Below, in pieces: positions 45,117 through 52,416 of a stretch of DNA of 64,000 bases. The notes beneath the pieces were generated by a model. That model saw nothing but the letters and a program-made list of their open reading frames with translations, was not told the origin of the DNA and did not search any database. This stretch comes from Parasaccharibacter apium. GTDB lineage: Bacteria; Pseudomonadota; Alphaproteobacteria; Acetobacterales; Acetobacteraceae. Where the stretch lies: assembly GCF_002592045.1 (NCBI RefSeq), contig NZ_MEJG01000001.1:248001-312000 (forward strand), in the 5' to 3' direction. The stretch's first letter is position 1, and each line of letters begins with the position of its first letter. Position numbers and translations under genes: made by a program.

Positions 45117-46163
<1,047 letters not shown>

Positions 46164-46243
46164 TCAAAACTCCTGGCAGGATGACCCCGCTTTTACGAGG
46201 GTAAAGAAAACGGTCCGAATACCATCCACAGCATTCGCCGCAA

Positions 46244-46271
46244 ATTATAAAGACCCACGACCGTTCAGCAA
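46244..46271 (-). promoter_or_regulatory. Likely sigma70 promoter for mreB
   Basis: Read on the minus strand: TTGCTG (46271-46266), a 16-base spacer, then TATAAT (46249-46244). Transcription would begin around 46237 and mreB starts at 46163, giving a leader of about 70 bases. Confidence 0.6.
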
Positions 46272-46356
46272 GGCCATATTCCCGCTTCTGAGCGTTTTTT
46301 TCGCAGAAAACCCCACTTATTAATAAGCTGTTATATTCATGAACTTATTTTTTCAC

Positions 46357-46383
46357 AAAAAATGGGGGGTATCCCCCCATTTT
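46357..46383 (-). terminator. Intrinsic terminator of leuA
   Basis: Perfect stem: on the minus strand AAAATGGGGGG (46383-46373), loop ATA, CCCCCCATTTT (46369-46359), then further Ts. The loop is only three bases. It follows the leuA stop at 46385 by one base and separates leuA from mreB. Confidence 0.85.
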
Positions 46384-46384
46384 A

Positions 46385-47956
46385 CTAGGCCACATCCTCT
46401 GCGGGTTCACCGCGTAAGCGTTTCACTAATAATTTATTCAAAGCATGAATATAAGCCCGCGTGGCTGATACAACCGTATCGGCATCACTGCCTTGCCCAT
46501 CCACAAGGCGGCCACCCTCTTGCAAACGTACCGTCGTACGCGCCTGGGCATCCGTCCCTTCAGTCACATTCGCTACTGAGAATAACGCTAAGGTCGCCTC
46601 ATGGGGGAAGGCCTCACCTAACGCACGGAAGGCCGCATCCACCGGGCCATTCCCCGTTGCAGTGACGTGCTGCGACTCACCATCAATCTCCAGCGTCATA
46701 ACAACATGCGCGGCATGTTCTGTCCCACCCTTCAGATCCAAAGAGATAAGACGAATACGCTCATGGTCGCGACTTTCATCATCCACTAAAGCCCGCACAT
46801 CATCATCAAAAACGATCTTCTTTTGATCTGCCAAAGCCTTAAAGCGTTGGAAGGCCGCGTTAATTGTCTCCTCTTTCAGCTCATCATAACCCAGAGCCTT
46901 CAATTTATCGCGGAAAGCAGCACGACCAGAATGTTTACCCAACACCAAAGAGGTACTCGTCCAGCCCACGCTCTCCGGCGTCATAATCTCATATGTTCCG
47001 GCATGTTTGAGGATACCATCTTGATGGATGCCACTCTCATGAGCAAAGGCGTTACGCCCCACAATGGCCTTATTGGGTTGGACATCAAAGCCTGTAATGG
47101 TCGCCAGCAAACGGGACAGCCCCAGCAGACGCGGAGTCTCAATCCCTGTCTCCATACCGTAGCGGTCATGCCGAGTCCGCAACGCCATGACGACTTCCTC
47201 TAGTGCTGCATTACCTGCGCGCTCGCCAATGCCGTTAATCGTACATTCAATCTGGCGGGCTCCCCCCTCAACAGAGGCCAGCGTATTGGCCACAGCCAAA
47301 CCTAAATCATTATGATTATGGGTGGAGAAAATCACCTGATCCGCCCCCGGGACACGCTCCTTCAACATCGTGAAGATGCGCTCCATCTCATCAGGGGTCG
47401 CAAAGCCGACTGTATCGGGGATGTTAATAGTCGTTGCCCCGTTCGCAATGGCTGTTTCCACACAACGACACAGAAAATCTGGTTCCGTCCGGGAGCCATC
47501 CTCAGCTGACCATTCAACATCATCTGTATAGCGGCGGGATTCTTTATTGCCGAATGCTATCAGCTCCAACACGCGCTCCGGCTCCATCCGCAGCTTGTAC
47601 TTCATATGCAGAGGCGAGGTGGAAATAAAGTTATGAATCCGCCCCCGGCGCGCACCTTTAATCGCCTTACCAGCAGCCTCAATATCCCGCGCAGCACTAC
47701 GGGCCAACCCACAAATAACAGGCCCATCTACATGGTCAGCAATTTGTTTTACGCTCTCGAAATCACCTTCTGAAGCGGCGGGGAAGCCTGCCTCAATTAC
47801 ATCAACCCCCAGCGCAGCCAAAGCATGAGCCATACGCAGCTTCTCATCCAAATTCATGGAGAAGCCAGGAGACTGCTCGCCATCGCGCAAAGTGGTATCG
47901 AAAATAACGATGCGTTTATCGTCAATATGACCAAAAGAAGGATGCTGAAAAGACAT
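46385..47956 (-). CDS. leuA: 2-isopropylmalate synthase
   Basis: First committed step of leucine synthesis: acetyl-CoA plus 2-ketoisovalerate gives 2-isopropylmalate. 523 residues, the normal long form. The catalytic TIM-barrel domain has [19 protein letters not shown] (residues 16-35), the [16 protein letters not shown] metal site, and [19 protein letters not shown]. The C-terminal LeuA regulatory domain that senses leucine starts around residue 395, with the [17 protein letters not shown] and [23 protein letters not shown] stretches. GAGGG sits 8 bases before the ATG. Upstream lies a leader peptide and terminator (48003-48087), so control is probably double: attenuation and allosteric feedback. 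Confidence 0.95.
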
Positions 47957-47989
47957 CGTAACGCCCTCAATTTCTACGTTGTGACAAAT

Positions 47990-48050
47990 GATAAGAACAA
48001 AACCCCTGAACGCAGCAGACCATCTGCCTGCCTATACGGCATTCAGGGGG
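47990..48050 (-). terminator. leuA attenuator terminator hairpin
   Basis: RNA read on the minus strand: CCCCUGAAUGC (48049-48039) pairs with GCGUUCAGGGG (48013-48003) over 11 positions, one of them U-G. Inside is a second small hairpin, GCAGA-UGG-UCUGC, and the stem is followed by UUUUGUUCUU. It stands between the leader ORF and leuA, 47 bases before the leuA start. The leader stop codon lies inside the first arm. Confidence 0.85.
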
Positions 48051-48087
48051 TCATAAGTCGTAGAAGGAGGGTACGAAAATCTAACAT
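48043..48087 (-). CDS. leuL: leuA leader peptide
   Basis: ATG at 48087 opens a 14-residue peptide, MLDFRTLLLRLMTP, ending with TGA at 48045-48043. Five of 14 residues are leucine, with the codons TTA, CTC, CTT, CTA, CTT, and the run LLLRL sits just before the terminator arm. It is too short for ordinary gene finders. The Leu-rich content, position and terminator together support a leucine attenuation leader. A weak AGG lies about 11-13 bases upstream; a clear promoter was not found. The symbol is by analogy with enteric leuL; the sequence is not similar. Confidence 0.8.
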   Translation of the reverse strand: MLDFRTLLLRLMTP

Positions 48088-48146
48088 TACACGCGTTACC
48101 TATCGCCTTTTCCGATATAATGCAAGCGATGAGACCATTCTTCTTT

Positions 48147-48983
48147 TTAAAGCGTTGCGCTTACCCGATTATGAAAATAATGGTCGATCGCCTGCTTCAT
48201 CGCTTGGGCTACTTGCGTCCTATGGGCTGCGCGGCGCAATGCTTGCTCATCTAAATGGTTGGACATAAAGCCCATCTCCACCAACACTGAGGGAATATCG
48301 CCCGATTTCAACACCCGAAAGGCCGCATGACGCGAGGGGTGATGCAGCAATTGCACTCGATTCTGAAATGCCTGAATCACGCTCGCAGCCATATGGGCCG
48401 AGCCACGTCGTGTTTCCTCATGAATCAGGCTATTCAAAATCGCTTCAACTTCAGCTGGCACACCTCCTATCCCTGCATGGCCTGCAAAACGGTCCGCACT
48501 ATTTTCCGTCTCAGCTAATGCGGCTGTTTGTTTGTCCGAGGCATTACCAGATAATGTATAAACACTCGCCCCGCGTACCTGTGGTTGATGCAATGCATCG
48601 GCATGCATAGAGATAAAAAGGTCTGCCTTGTGTTTGTGAGCCAATTCCACACGCCCTGCTAAGGGGATAAACCGGTCATCATTGCGGCTAAGAACAACCT
48701 GATATTGCCCTGATGCCATGAGCATACGCTGTAACTCTGTCGCGGCGGCCACAGCGATATGCTTCTCATACGTCCCAGAGACGCCAATCGCCCCGGGATC
48801 TTTGCCGCCATGCCCAGGGTCCAACATGATAACCGGCTTAGGCGGTGGCGCATGGCGTAAAATAGCCGGAGCATGACTATTATGCCGCCTCGCAGCTGCT
48901 AGCCCAGGGTGGGGCCCAAATGTTGTTGCCATACCACCGGCTATGGTCCCCCTCACAAAACCACGACGCGTTAAGCCTGCCAT
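48147..48983 (-). CDS. amiC: N-acetylmuramoyl-L-alanine amidase
   Basis: Zinc amidase cutting the bond between peptide and glycan in peptidoglycan. 278 residues. The N-terminus has a twin-arginine signal (LTRRGFVRGTIAGGMATTFG), so export should be Tat-dependent. The Amidase_3 domain spans about 50-270: IMLDPGHGGKDPGAIG (His ligand), the EKHIAVAAATELQRML Glu, LFISMHADAL (His), and VEMGFMSNHLDEQAL with the catalytic Glu. The short AMIN-less form fits a septal amidase. It ends 59 bases before the leuA leader peptide. Confidence 0.88.
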   Translation of the reverse strand: MAGLTRRGFVRGTIAGGMATTFGPHPGLAAARRHNSHAPAILRHAPPPKPVIMLDPGHGGKDPGAIGVSGTYEKHIAVAAATELQRMLMASGQYQVVLSRNDDRFIPLAGRVELAHKHKADLFISMHADALHQPQVRGASVYTLSGNASDKQTAALAETENSADRFAGHAGIGGVPAEVEAILNSLIHEETRRGSAHMAASVIQAFQNRVQLLHHPSRHAAFRVLKSGDIPSVLVEMGFMSNHLDEQALRRAAHRTQVAQAMKQAIDHYFHNRVSATL

Positions 48984-49641
48984 AGCCTCTACACTCTCTC
49001 CAACAGAGTTCTGCCCCTCATATCGTATTTCACCTTATTATACTGCATTGTAAATATTCACATAGTGATCCGTCGCTTCCTTCCGTCATTGCCGCGATAA
49101 ATTGACTATAATTTAGATAAAATAGTCTCCTTTTCAGACATGAATATACTCTTAAAAAAGGCAGAAAATGGCTGTATTCTGCCTTACCATAGGGGGACGA
49201 ACTCCCCTCTTGCCAGCCACGCTAATTTACGTCATTCTATAGTTAGCAAAAGCCGGTAACATGGTACGTCCTGATTTAACTCATAAAAGGCCGTGCCAAG
49301 CGCGGCTCACGCATGTAGTACGCTTTATGCCGTTCGGTGTCGAAAGCCTGGGGCCATTAACCTTCAGTACGCTCACACCCTGGCAGGAGGTCTGCATCTA
49401 CAACTAACGCGATCGGCCCAGTGGCATAACCATCTCACAGGCGGGTTGCATGATAATCCCGGTGGCAGTGTCTGCTACCAGCATGTTTACCAGAGGCTGC
49501 AATGCTGTTCTGTGTTATTCCTTATGGCGTACCGCGTGATACGAAGCCCGCTCGCCAGAAAATGGACAGGATGCCCTCTATTGATCAAGACAATCGGCGC
49601 CAGGAAGGCTATACGCCGCGCGCCACGGAGTCCCGTCCTTC
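48984..49641 (+). other. 658-bp amiC-rne intergenic region (rne leader)
   Basis: No convincing protein gene: an open frame at 49293-49649 (118 codons) shows no recognisable protein character and runs 8 bases into rne. The region likely carries the amiC promoter (48984 to about 49100) and a long rne 5' leader. Long, structured rne leaders that RNase E cleaves to control its own synthesis are known in enterobacteria; whether that holds here is inference. Structures seen: a terminator-like hairpin on the minus strand (49158-49185), AGGGG..CCCCT at 49191-49208, and a tight stem GGTGGCAG/CTGCTACC at 49461-49479. No T-box or riboswitch core was recognised. Confidence 0.5.
49150..49185 (-). terminator. 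Orphan intrinsic terminator on minus strand
   Basis: On the minus strand AAGGCAGAA (49185-49177) pairs with TTCTGCCTT (49166-49158) around a ten-base loop, followed directly by TTTT (49157-49154). That is a standard intrinsic terminator, but no minus-strand gene lies upstream before rne. It could end an unannotated small RNA or block antisense transcription into amiC. Confidence 0.6.
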
Positions 49642-52416
49642 ATGACTAAACAAATGCTCATAGACGCCACACACGCTGAAGAAACCCGCGTGGTGGTCAT
49701 GAACGGCAAGCGTATTGAAGATTATGATGTTGAAACATCAGCGCGCCGTCAGCTCAAAGGCAATATTTATCTCGCTAAAGTTATTCGTGTAGAGCCAAGT
49801 TTACAGGCCGCCTTTGTGGATTATGGCGGCAATCGCCACGGCTTCCTCGCTTTTAGTGAAATCCATCCCGACTATTTCCAAATCCCTGTCGCTGATCGCG
49901 AGAAACTCCTCGCCCTTCAAGAGGAGGAATATGCCGCTGAACAACGCGAGCAAGATGATCCCCTCGAAGAGGACGACCGTACGGAAGACACCCTCTCTGA
50001 TGATAACAGCGATGGTGATAATGACAGTGATGGTGAAGATGTAAGCCCAGAAATTGTCAGCGGCGAGCATGATACTGGTGATGAGCATAGCGCCAGCCGC
50101 CGCATGGCGCGTTTTCTACGCAATTATCGCATCCAAGAAGTCATCCGCCGCCGGCAAGTGATCCTTGTCCAGGTTGTAAAGGAGGAACGTGGTAATAAAG
50201 GAGCTGCTTTAACGACCTATCTCTCCCTTGCGGGACGTTATGGTGTGCTCATGCCCAATACCCTCCGCGGGGGCGGTGTGTCGCGTAAAATCACCTCCGA
50301 GACAGACCGGCGGCGTTTACGCAGCATTGTAAACATGCTGGACCTCCCCCCCACAATGGCGATGATTATCCGCACCGCCGGGGCGGGCCGCCCGGAGACG
50401 GAGATTACGCGGGATTGTGAATATCTCCTCCAACTCTGGGAGGATATTCGCACTCATGCGCTTACCTCTATCGCCCCTGCTTTAATTTATGAGGAAGCAA
50501 GCCTCATTAAACGGGCTATTCGTGACCTCTTTACCCGCGATATTGAGACCGTGTTGGTTGATGGAGAAGAGGCGTGGAAAAATACGCGGGAATTTACACG
50601 CCTGCTGATGCCCCATAACGTCAATCGCATCCGCCTTTGGCAAAATAGAGGGCAAAATCTCTTCGCCCATTATCAGGTAGAAAGCCACCTTGATGCGATG
50701 TTCTCCCCCACTGTGCGGTTGGAATCTGGGGGCTATCTCGTCATCAATCAGACCGAAGCCCTTGTCGCTATTGACGTCAACTCCGGCAAATCCACCTCCC
50801 AGCGCAATATTGAGGAAACCGCCCTCCGCACAAATCTAGAAGCCGCTGAGGAAGTCGCTCGCCAACTCCGCCTGCGTGACCTTGCCGGGCTGATTGTCAT
50901 CGACTTCATCGATATGGAAAGCCGCCGCCATAATAACCAGGTGGAAAAACGCCTCAAAGATGCCTTACGGTTGGATAGAGCGCGGATTCAGATAGGCCGT
51001 ATCTCTCATTTCGGCCTTTTGGAGATGTCGCGCCAACGCCTGCGCCCCTCCATTGCTGAGAGTATGCTCAGCCCCTGCCCGCATTGCCAAGGCACTGGCT
51101 CCATCCGCGGGGTGGAGAGCATGGCCTTACAAGTACTACGCAGTGTAGAAGATGAGGCCAGCCGCCGTCGTGCTTCGGAAATTGTCGTGCATGTTAGCCC
51201 TAATATCGTCCTTTACATGCTTAATAGCAAAAGGGCGGCTATTAGCGGGATGGAACAACATCACGACATGACCATCCGTTTTGAAAATGACAATACCCTC
51301 CCAGAAGGGGAGCTCCGCATTGAGCGTGTTGCCCCCCGTCACAAGACGGCACGTGAAGATAATCCTATCACTACCATCCGCACGATTAACATTGCTGATG
51401 AAGCTCCCCCTGCGCCTACATCCACCACAGATGAAGCACATCATGAGATGGAAGAGAGCAATAACGATAAAACCTCTCGTCGTCGCCGGCGTCGGCGCGG
51501 TGGACGTCGCCGCGATGATGAAACCCAAGATACTCTAAACCCAACAAACGAAGATACAGACATGCCTCCCTCAATGGAAAGCAATGAAGAGAATGACCGC
51601 GCCCTCATGCCCGGCCGGCGTCGGACACGGACACGGCGCGTTACATCCTCCTCCGCCACCGCTCCTCAACACGAAGCACAAGAACGGTCTCACCGCCGCG
51701 AGCTTTCTTCCCGCCGTCGCCCCCCGCGCCAGCAGGAAGAACTTATCTCCACTGAAGAGCTCGCCGCTTATCAAGGGCCAACACCTGCAAATCCTTTCCA
51801 AAATGCCGGCATTGATATTTTCGATATGATGGAACAACAGGAGGCCCGGCACGCATCCCCAACTCTTCATCAAGACGAGCAGCAAGAACACGCTGTAGCG
51901 GAGGAGGCCCCTTCCTCCACACGCCGTCGCCGCCGCCCAGCGCGTAGGCATGAACGCCTCGAAGAAGAGAATGAAGCCACACCGCGCCGTCCACACACGC
52001 CGCGCCAACCTCCAACACGCAGCCGCATCGTCACAGATCAAGAAACAGAAGACGACGCGACCCACATGGTGAAAATCTCCACACGCTCTGCCTCTACAGG
52101 TGCAGATAGTGAGACCACCACGCGCTCTTCCACGCGTCGTGCACGGCCGCGCCGCCGGCCTACTACAGCCCGCACCACGACAATGGATGAAGCTATAGAA
52201 GAGACCGCTACATCCGCAGATGAAGCTGTAGAAAAAGCCTCCCCTGCACGCAAACGTCGCCCTGCGCGACGGAAAAAAGCCGAGGACACGCCTGCTGCCC
52301 CCACGCAAGAAGCCACAGCAGACACCACCCCTGCGGAGAATATCGCTGCCCCACAGCCCGTCAATATTGACGAAGCCAAACCCCAAAAACGGCGAGTGGG
52401 TTGGTGGCGGCGTTAA
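49642..52416 (+). CDS. rne: Ribonuclease E
   Basis: Essential endonuclease for mRNA decay and rRNA/tRNA maturation, and scaffold of the degradosome. 924 residues. Start MTKQMLIDATHAEETRVVV is typical. S1 RNA-binding domain (about 35-170) is interrupted by an acidic insert of about 65 residues (DDPLEEDDRTEDTLSDDNSD...), as in other alphaproteobacteria. The catalytic DNase I-like domain carries AIDVNSGKST (about 377) and LIVIDFIDM (about 420). The zinc link CPHCQGTG is at about 479. The last 350 residues are low-complexity, Arg/Pro-rich with RRRRRRGGRRR and repeated TRRRRRPARR motifs, the expected unstructured RNA/protein-binding tail. Confidence 0.95.
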   Translation: MTKQMLIDATHAEETRVVVMNGKRIEDYDVETSARRQLKGNIYLAKVIRVEPSLQAAFVDYGGNRHGFLAFSEIHPDYFQIPVADREKLLALQEEEYAAEQREQDDPLEEDDRTEDTLSDDNSDGDNDSDGEDVSPEIVSGEHDTGDEHSASRRMARFLRNYRIQEVIRRRQVILVQVVKEERGNKGAALTTYLSLAGRYGVLMPNTLRGGGVSRKITSETDRRRLRSIVNMLDLPPTMAMIIRTAGAGRPETEITRDCEYLLQLWEDIRTHALTSIAPALIYEEASLIKRAIRDLFTRDIETVLVDGEEAWKNTREFTRLLMPHNVNRIRLWQNRGQNLFAHYQVESHLDAMFSPTVRLESGGYLVINQTEALVAIDVNSGKSTSQRNIEETALRTNLEAAEEVARQLRLRDLAGLIVIDFIDMESRRHNNQVEKRLKDALRLDRARIQIGRISHFGLLEMSRQRLRPSIAESMLSPCPHCQGTGSIRGVESMALQVLRSVEDEASRRRASEIVVHVSPNIVLYMLNSKRAAISGMEQHHDMTIRFENDNTLPEGELRIERVAPRHKTAREDNPITTIRTINIADEAPPAPTSTTDEAHHEMEESNNDKTSRRRRRRRGGRRRDDETQDTLNPTNEDTDMPPSMESNEENDRALMPGRRRTRTRRVTSSSATAPQHEAQERSHRRELSSRRRPPRQQEELISTEELAAYQGPTPANPFQNAGIDIFDMMEQQEARHASPTLHQDEQQEHAVAEEAPSSTRRRRRPARRHERLEEENEATPRRPHTPRQPPTRSRIVTDQETEDDATHMVKISTRSASTGADSETTTRSSTRRARPRRRPTTARTTTMDEAIEETATSADEAVEKASPARKRRPARRKKAEDTPAAPTQEATADTTPAENIAAPQPVNIDEAKPQKRRVGWWRR

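Follow-up and report, generated by a model that had tools for sequence, protein, structure and literature searches.

Does the short leucine-rich open reading frame (ORF) in front of leuA, together with the hairpin in which it ends, form a leader that regulates this gene, and at which step of expression would it act? The window, a 64,000-nt stretch of the Parasaccharibacter apium genome, carries on its minus strand the gene for 2-isopropylmalate synthase (leuA, 46385..47956), recognized by its ORF and an NCBIfam match. Its product is 100% identical to the LeuA of Bombella saccharophila strain TMW 2.2558 (L001), which assigns the window to that species. Upstream on the same strand lies a leader ORF (48043..48087), MLDFRTLLLRLMTP*, with 14 codons and a UGA stop (AUG UUA GAU UUU CGU ACC CUC CUU CUA CGA CUU AUG ACC CCC UGA). 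Five of the 14 are Leu codons, as a preliminary description of this DNA had reported. The last of them, CUU, forms with the CGA before it a conserved codon pair (48055..48060, minus strand), and the stop comes four codons later. The same description had placed this stop in the first arm of an 11-pair hairpin, which is where we find it. The 5' arm of the hairpin, named P2 (CCCCUGAAUGC, 48039..48049), holds the UGA and pairs in the predicted folds with the 3' arm (GCGUUCAGGGG, 48003..48013) through 11 base pairs, one of them G-U. The loop contains a nested hairpin (48014..48032) that appears in predicted folds and lies in a stretch that varies in alignments, and P2 is followed by the U-tract UUUUGUUCUU (47993..48002); all these elements are on the minus strand.

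Folding of the 131-nt leader gave −46.9 kcal/mol, compared with −31.3 ± 3.5 kcal/mol for shuffled sequences (z −4.48; none of 200 shuffles was as good). The predicted fold also contains a second helix, P1, which joins the leader codons from CGU to the last CUU (48057..48076, minus strand) to four segments (GUC, GUAGAA, GAGGG and UUACG) over the leuA ribosome-binding site (47957..47986, minus strand). P1 includes UUCUAC/GUAGAA, which had earlier been raised as a possible secondary pairing (TTCTACG with CGTAGAA), and extends to CCCUC/GAGGG over the leuA Shine-Dalgarno sequence (47964..47968, minus strand), with pair probabilities of 0.994-0.999. A promoter scan ahead of the leader yielded no consensus promoter (1.0 expected by chance), and by eye the leader ORF has no clear Shine-Dalgarno sequence of its own on the 48087-48150 side. 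In relatives, boxes resembling CTTGCA are similarly placed and, judged by eye, suggest a very short 5' end or a leaderless start.

To delimit the element, we used a covariance model, R1, built from 66 sequences of the core and containing no leuA coding sequence. In the window, the conserved core consists of the leader end and the hairpin (47999..48072, minus strand; E 2.4e-10). R1 matches 179 of 200 Acetobacteraceae genomes, while its sole other match in the window's own genome scores at chance level (E 3.2). Our family set comprised 80 leuA loci and 60 further upstream pieces under 46 genus labels. The core, in the form CGACTT, CGACTA or CAACTT, is present in 137 of these 140 leuA upstream regions, a count that is not dereplicated, since the further pieces (L111-L170) partly overlap the loci (L001-L080) and the 137 rows hold 122 distinct sequences over 105 nt. 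In all 137, the core lies 11 nt from the base of the hairpin. The three regions lacking the standard core are L036, where it is shortened, and L070 and L160, which have none and come from the same organism, an Acetobacter metagenome-assembled genome whose leuA upstream region is AT-rich. Because the ORF and hairpin of the window are conserved in related genomes, they are not a product of chance. By eye, one sequence (L129, genus g49) repeats the 15-nt unit CGA-CTT-x-x-x four times, in tandem and in frame, ahead of the stop, and a single genome (L052/L131) has a second copy of CGACTT.

The leader has the hallmarks of a coding sequence rich in leucine. In the nine codons before the fixed Leu codon, which is itself excluded, the Leu fraction over the 137 family leaders is 0.413 in frame, versus 0.037 and 0.033 out of frame; for 82 leaders of the class Alphaproteobacteria, it is 0.377, versus 0.070 and 0.028. 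The family leaders were collected with a pattern demanding CGA or CAA before CTT or CTA, within which CTT serves as the fixed codon in 127 leaders and CTA in 10, preceded by CGA in 135 and CAA in 2. That pattern demanded no stop; one nevertheless occurs four codons past the fixed Leu codon in 109 leaders, six codons past it in 27 and 19 codons past it in one, as TGA (128), TAG (6) or TAA (3). For the class, the pattern demanded the spacing, T as third codon base (hence no CTA) and T-purine-purine at the stop, so the following figures are partly built in: the stop lies four codons on in 78 of the 82 leaders, and over all 82 it is TGA in 73, TAG in 6 and TAA in 3. CTT follows CGA in 63 of these leaders, another Leu codon in 18 and CGG in 1. 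Alignment of Acetobacteraceae leuA leaders, which had been proposed as a check, thus finds the frame, the Leu codons and mostly the stop retained.

The hairpin, for its part, covaries. Across 91 sequences, P2 pairing holds in 96.0% of cells, and changes on both sides of a pair are found in 52 cells versus 7.7 in shuffles (0/500), more than in any slid version of the helix; alignment A1 alone gives 20 versus 8.2. Even the second base of the stop codon participates, since a G-to-A change there can be matched by a change in its hairpin partner (pair 29/94 is AU in 13, GU in 6 and GC in 72 of the 91 sequences). A simple terminator scan, whose loop limit was 3-8 nt, did not list P2. The claim that the hairpin is an intrinsic terminator may hold for the window, where a U-tract follows P2, but it is not supported as a general mechanism: a U-tract, defined as at least five T in the 8 nt past the hairpin, occurs in only 15 of 218 sequences (11 of 136 family and 4 of 82 class sequences), so P2 is not generally an intrinsic terminator. 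Those with a U-tract include 4 of 10 sequences of the Bombella lineage, both sequences of genus g40, and L124 and L164 (UUUUUUUU). We therefore rejected intrinsic termination as a universal output and retained it only for Bombella and a small number of lineages; P2 may contribute to control as a terminator in Bombella and g40. No antiterminator of the enteric type was seen in the window folds. In five sequences from high-GC genera (L112, L140, L144, L146 and L156), the 3' arm is followed by a third copy, CCCCUGAGG, with which it could form an alternative hairpin. A further helix, P3, between CGACUUAGCC and GGCUAAUGUCG after the hairpin, gave z −3.7 overall and is predicted in L144 and L156; being supported in some high-GC genera and not general, it was left out of the main model.

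The element extends well beyond the family. At E 0.01 or better, R1 matches 101 of 385 Alphaproteobacteria genomes, once per genome with one exception. Three of the 101 belong to the family itself, and we examined 89 of the remaining 98. By tblastn, leuA is next to the element in 87 of these 89 loci, to which can be added one where a cupin gene stands between them. A second model, R2, matched 85 of 398 genomes of the phylum, all 85 from the same class or nearer, and the 27 further loci from this search all have leuA (tblastn), three of them in genomes already among the 89. Carriers identified by eye include Methylobacterium bullatum (L262), Phaeobacter inhibens (L264), which has a variant, and Paracoccus denitrificans (L263), which has a more diverged form. 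The element also precedes another LeuA type. In group f13 (L199, L219, L239, L276, L277 and L291), LeuA is 26-45% identical to that of the window, with L199 scoring above the TIGR00970 cut-off and far below that of TIGR00973, and the stems read CCCUUAGGCG or CCCUUGGGCG with matching partners. Five of the 87 class leuA loci (L243, L249, L253, L254 and L259) lack the core by pattern. Three of these have a Leu codon and a stop by eye; the other two, L243 and L253 from family f97, have a core one base shorter before the hairpin and, also by eye, no stop at the usual place.

What P1 adds is a link between the leader codons and the translation start of leuA. We assessed it with a coevolution test, in which the duplex energy between each leader segment and the Shine-Dalgarno region of its own leuA was compared with that obtained with the regions of other groups. 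In the family (59 genus labels, identical leader/site pairs merged), own pairs gave −10.60 and permuted pairs −9.05 (sd 0.26; z −6.1; 0/3000), and a separate run found 0 of 5000 permutations as strong. Outside the family, the class test covered 45 families and 77 of the 82 leaders, the other five having no start codon found; unmerged but averaged by family, it gave −13.26 versus −10.65 (sd 0.35; z −7.5; 0/5000). Some genera appear under two labels in these tests, which works against the result. Control regions gave z values of 0.1, −1.7 and −1.7 in the family and 1.0, 0.0 and −1.4 in the class. Immediately upstream of the leader segment, z was −3.8 in the family and −2.0 in the class, as expected of an extended helix. 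Compensation can be seen directly in Saccharibacter (GCCUCACC/GGUGAGGC), Neokomagataea (CGUCUUA/UAAGACG) and Bombella (CUUCUACG/CGUAGAA), and, in the class, in L182 (UGGUCCUUCG/CGAAGGACCA). The signal is uneven within the family. It amounts to z −4.2 without the Bombella-Gluconobacter clade and to z −1.3 in ten named genera outside that clade (307 of 3000 permutations as strong), and own pairs have little or no advantage over crossed ones in most Acetobacter, Gluconacetobacter, Novacetimonas and several others. By this sequence comparison and the predicted folds, P1 is a pairing that coevolves and sequesters the leuA Shine-Dalgarno region, a larger role than the secondary one first suggested for it.

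We then modeled what a ribosome on the leader would do, using thermodynamic calculations on short RNAs that allow nested structures only. Opening the GAGGG of the window is predicted to cost 11.0 kcal/mol in the free RNA. The cost falls to 2.7-3.8 kcal/mol when a ribosome waits at Leu codon 7, 8, 9 or 11, and to 8.1 kcal/mol when it occupies the stop. Averaged over 206 sequences, opening costs 6.12 kcal/mol in free RNA; a ribosome placed on the conserved Leu codon lowers this to 4.01, one placed three codons before it to 3.86, one on the stop to 5.04 and one ten codons upstream to 5.54. A drop of at least 2 kcal/mol is predicted in 44 of 104 groups for the conserved Leu codon, in 30 for the stop and in 28 for the upstream control. 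With a stalled ribosome in the window, P1 is lost in the model, but the Shine-Dalgarno sequence then pairs anew within a local hairpin that spans the start of leuA, with an unpaired probability of 0.18 or less.

Taken together, sequence comparison indicates that the leader end, its Leu codons and its stop are conserved, that P2 covaries, that leader codons coevolve with the leuA site and that the element is associated with leuA. The general idea of a Leu-codon leader whose structure would be disrupted by ribosome stalling is thus borne out by conservation in relatives. In our judgment, the leader is probably a leucine-responsive element that acts mainly by ribosome-mediated translational attenuation of leuA, a reading of which we infer the stalling, the direction of the response and the effect on translation. 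As long as no ribosome is on the mRNA, the leuA Shine-Dalgarno region would be paired with the leader's Leu codons and with the CGA that follows them, and P2, with the leader stop inside it, would draw the two strands of P1 together, leaving leuA poorly translated. With ample charged leucyl-tRNA, translation of the leader would be completed rapidly, and once the ribosomes had left, P1 and P2 would re-form. When leucyl-tRNA is scarce, a ribosome would wait at the Leu codons and cover the 5' strand of P1, and the leuA site would open. The ribosome footprint extends ~16 nt from the P site, and a ribosome waiting at the conserved CUU would also cover the first pairs, at the base, of P2. In Bombella and a few other lineages, the U-tract behind P2 may add transcription termination. 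The conserved CGA might slow decoding, although we offer this as a hypothesis only; a published report calls translation of a CGA-CGA pair in the his leader of Salmonella slow, but ties the slowness of Arg-Arg to charge in the exit channel (PMC11805395).

Could the leader control transcription instead? If P2 were an intrinsic terminator, a ribosome stalled at the Leu codons would cover its 5' arm and block termination. The window fits this, with an 11-pair GC-rich hairpin followed by UUUUGUUCUU, as do the U-tracts of L124, L164 and 4 of 10 Bombella-lineage sequences and the invariant 11 nt between CGACTT and the hairpin base (137/137 in the family). We nevertheless hold this account to be unlikely, since the U-tract is found in only 15 of 218 sequences though hairpin and leader are conserved, and since it does not explain why leader codons and the Shine-Dalgarno region coevolve. 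That coevolution is likewise not predicted by Rho-dependent termination or mRNA decay, in which the position of the ribosome on the leader would set the exposure of the untranslated stretch before leuA. Such a scheme would suit the majority of sequences, which have no U-tract, as well as Acetobacter, Gluconacetobacter and Novacetimonas, whose spacers are longer and have no clear Shine-Dalgarno pairing, yet we think it decidedly improbable.

An arrest peptide is a different kind of alternative, in which the nascent chain, ending L-R-L-x-x-P, would itself sense leucine and stall the ribosome at the stop codon. The peptide has a conserved end, and in many genera its last residue is Pro. However, conservation goes down to the codons, as 63 of 82 class leaders have CGA ahead of the Leu codon, the stop comes two codons later in 27 of 137 family leaders, and Arg or Pro is replaced in some class members. 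Moreover, stalling at the stop when leucine is abundant would tend to favor an open structure, which would be the wrong direction for a biosynthetic gene. We regard this possibility as very remote. Translational attenuation, the reading we favor, faces an objection of its own from Streptomyces, taken up below.

How does this leader compare with known ones? In enteric bacteria, leucine biosynthesis is controlled by a Leu-rich leader peptide through pause, antiterminator and terminator hairpins (Leu_leader in Rfam, RF00512). In contrast, the leader described here has no antiterminator in the window folds, no Rfam match and a U-tract in few sequences. The erm-type translational attenuators, in which a stalled leader ribosome frees a sequestered Shine-Dalgarno sequence, share that outcome with our proposal; their arrest is induced by antibiotics, whereas amino-acid shortage is the trigger proposed here. 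Searching Rfam 15 over window positions 46000-50000 with E up to 1 returned only a Termite-leu match, which lies elsewhere and below threshold, and a search of the loci of 20 relatives with E up to 0.5 returned only terC, again elsewhere. The Termite-leu match (46344-46406, minus strand; 23.3 bits against a threshold of 51) is over the 3' end of leuA, where a hairpin and U-rich sequence resemble a leuA terminator. In titles and abstract openings of the open-licence literature, we found no description of an alphaproteobacterial leuA leader, although one may exist in print; the 2004 study of attenuation in proteobacteria by Vitreschak et al. reportedly may bear on it. Within the same class, the ilv leader of Caulobacter, as described (PMC4117421), contains Ile and Val codons and a ribosome blocks its Rho-independent terminator. 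It shares with the mechanism proposed for the leuA leader ribosome-mediated control of a branched-chain amino acid operon, and differs from it in that here the codons are Leu and the coevolving partner is the Shine-Dalgarno region.

The closest known system is the actinobacterial LEU element, to which we liken the leader by description. As presented in the original account (Seliverstov et al. 2005, PMC1262725), it too has a leader ORF with a run of Leu codons before leuA, and a base stem formed by Leu codons and the Shine-Dalgarno box. P1 would be a base stem of this kind, though not in every genus here. The two differ in the interior, which that account describes as a pseudoknot or alternative hairpin and which here is a nested hairpin with the leader stop, in the conserved core from Leu codon to stop, and in phylum. 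The same paper cites work in which leuA leader mutations in Streptomyces coelicolor did not fit classical attenuation; its authors considered classical attenuation unlikely from these published mutations and favored a regulatory protein (PMC1262725). This work counts against translational attenuation for the leader described here.

These observations can be combined into a broader reading, on which we are evenly divided. The leader would be a widespread and probably ancestral alphaproteobacterial leuA RNA outside Rfam, in which the Leu codons double as anti-Shine-Dalgarno sequence and so serve as both sensor and switch. CGA-CUU, at its fixed distance from the hairpin, would perhaps be tuned to seat a starved ribosome on the hairpin base, with the slow CGA in the P site and the empty Leu codon in the A site. 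The RNA would have followed, or been acquired by, two LeuA types, with the terminator gained or lost by lineage. No Rfam 15 family covers the leader, yet a model built from one family detects a covarying element in 101 of 385 genomes of the class, and many short leader peptides become predictable. The leader also adds, from a different phylum, a second instance of a leuA Shine-Dalgarno box paired with Leu codons, which makes the mechanism of the LEU element testable in tractable organisms.

Two loci deserve a brief mention. In one genome (L246/L267), a cupin-like gene is inserted between the leucine leader and leuA. In another (L261/L266), a core-like element, which reads CGA ATT where the standard core has CGA CTT, stands before a gene resembling that for threonine dehydratase (ilvA, named from its translation). 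The leuA of the L261 genome carries its own copy of the element (L265), and the ilvA-associated element, with a weak score (E 0.004), may be due to chance or represent an isoleucine version of the leader.
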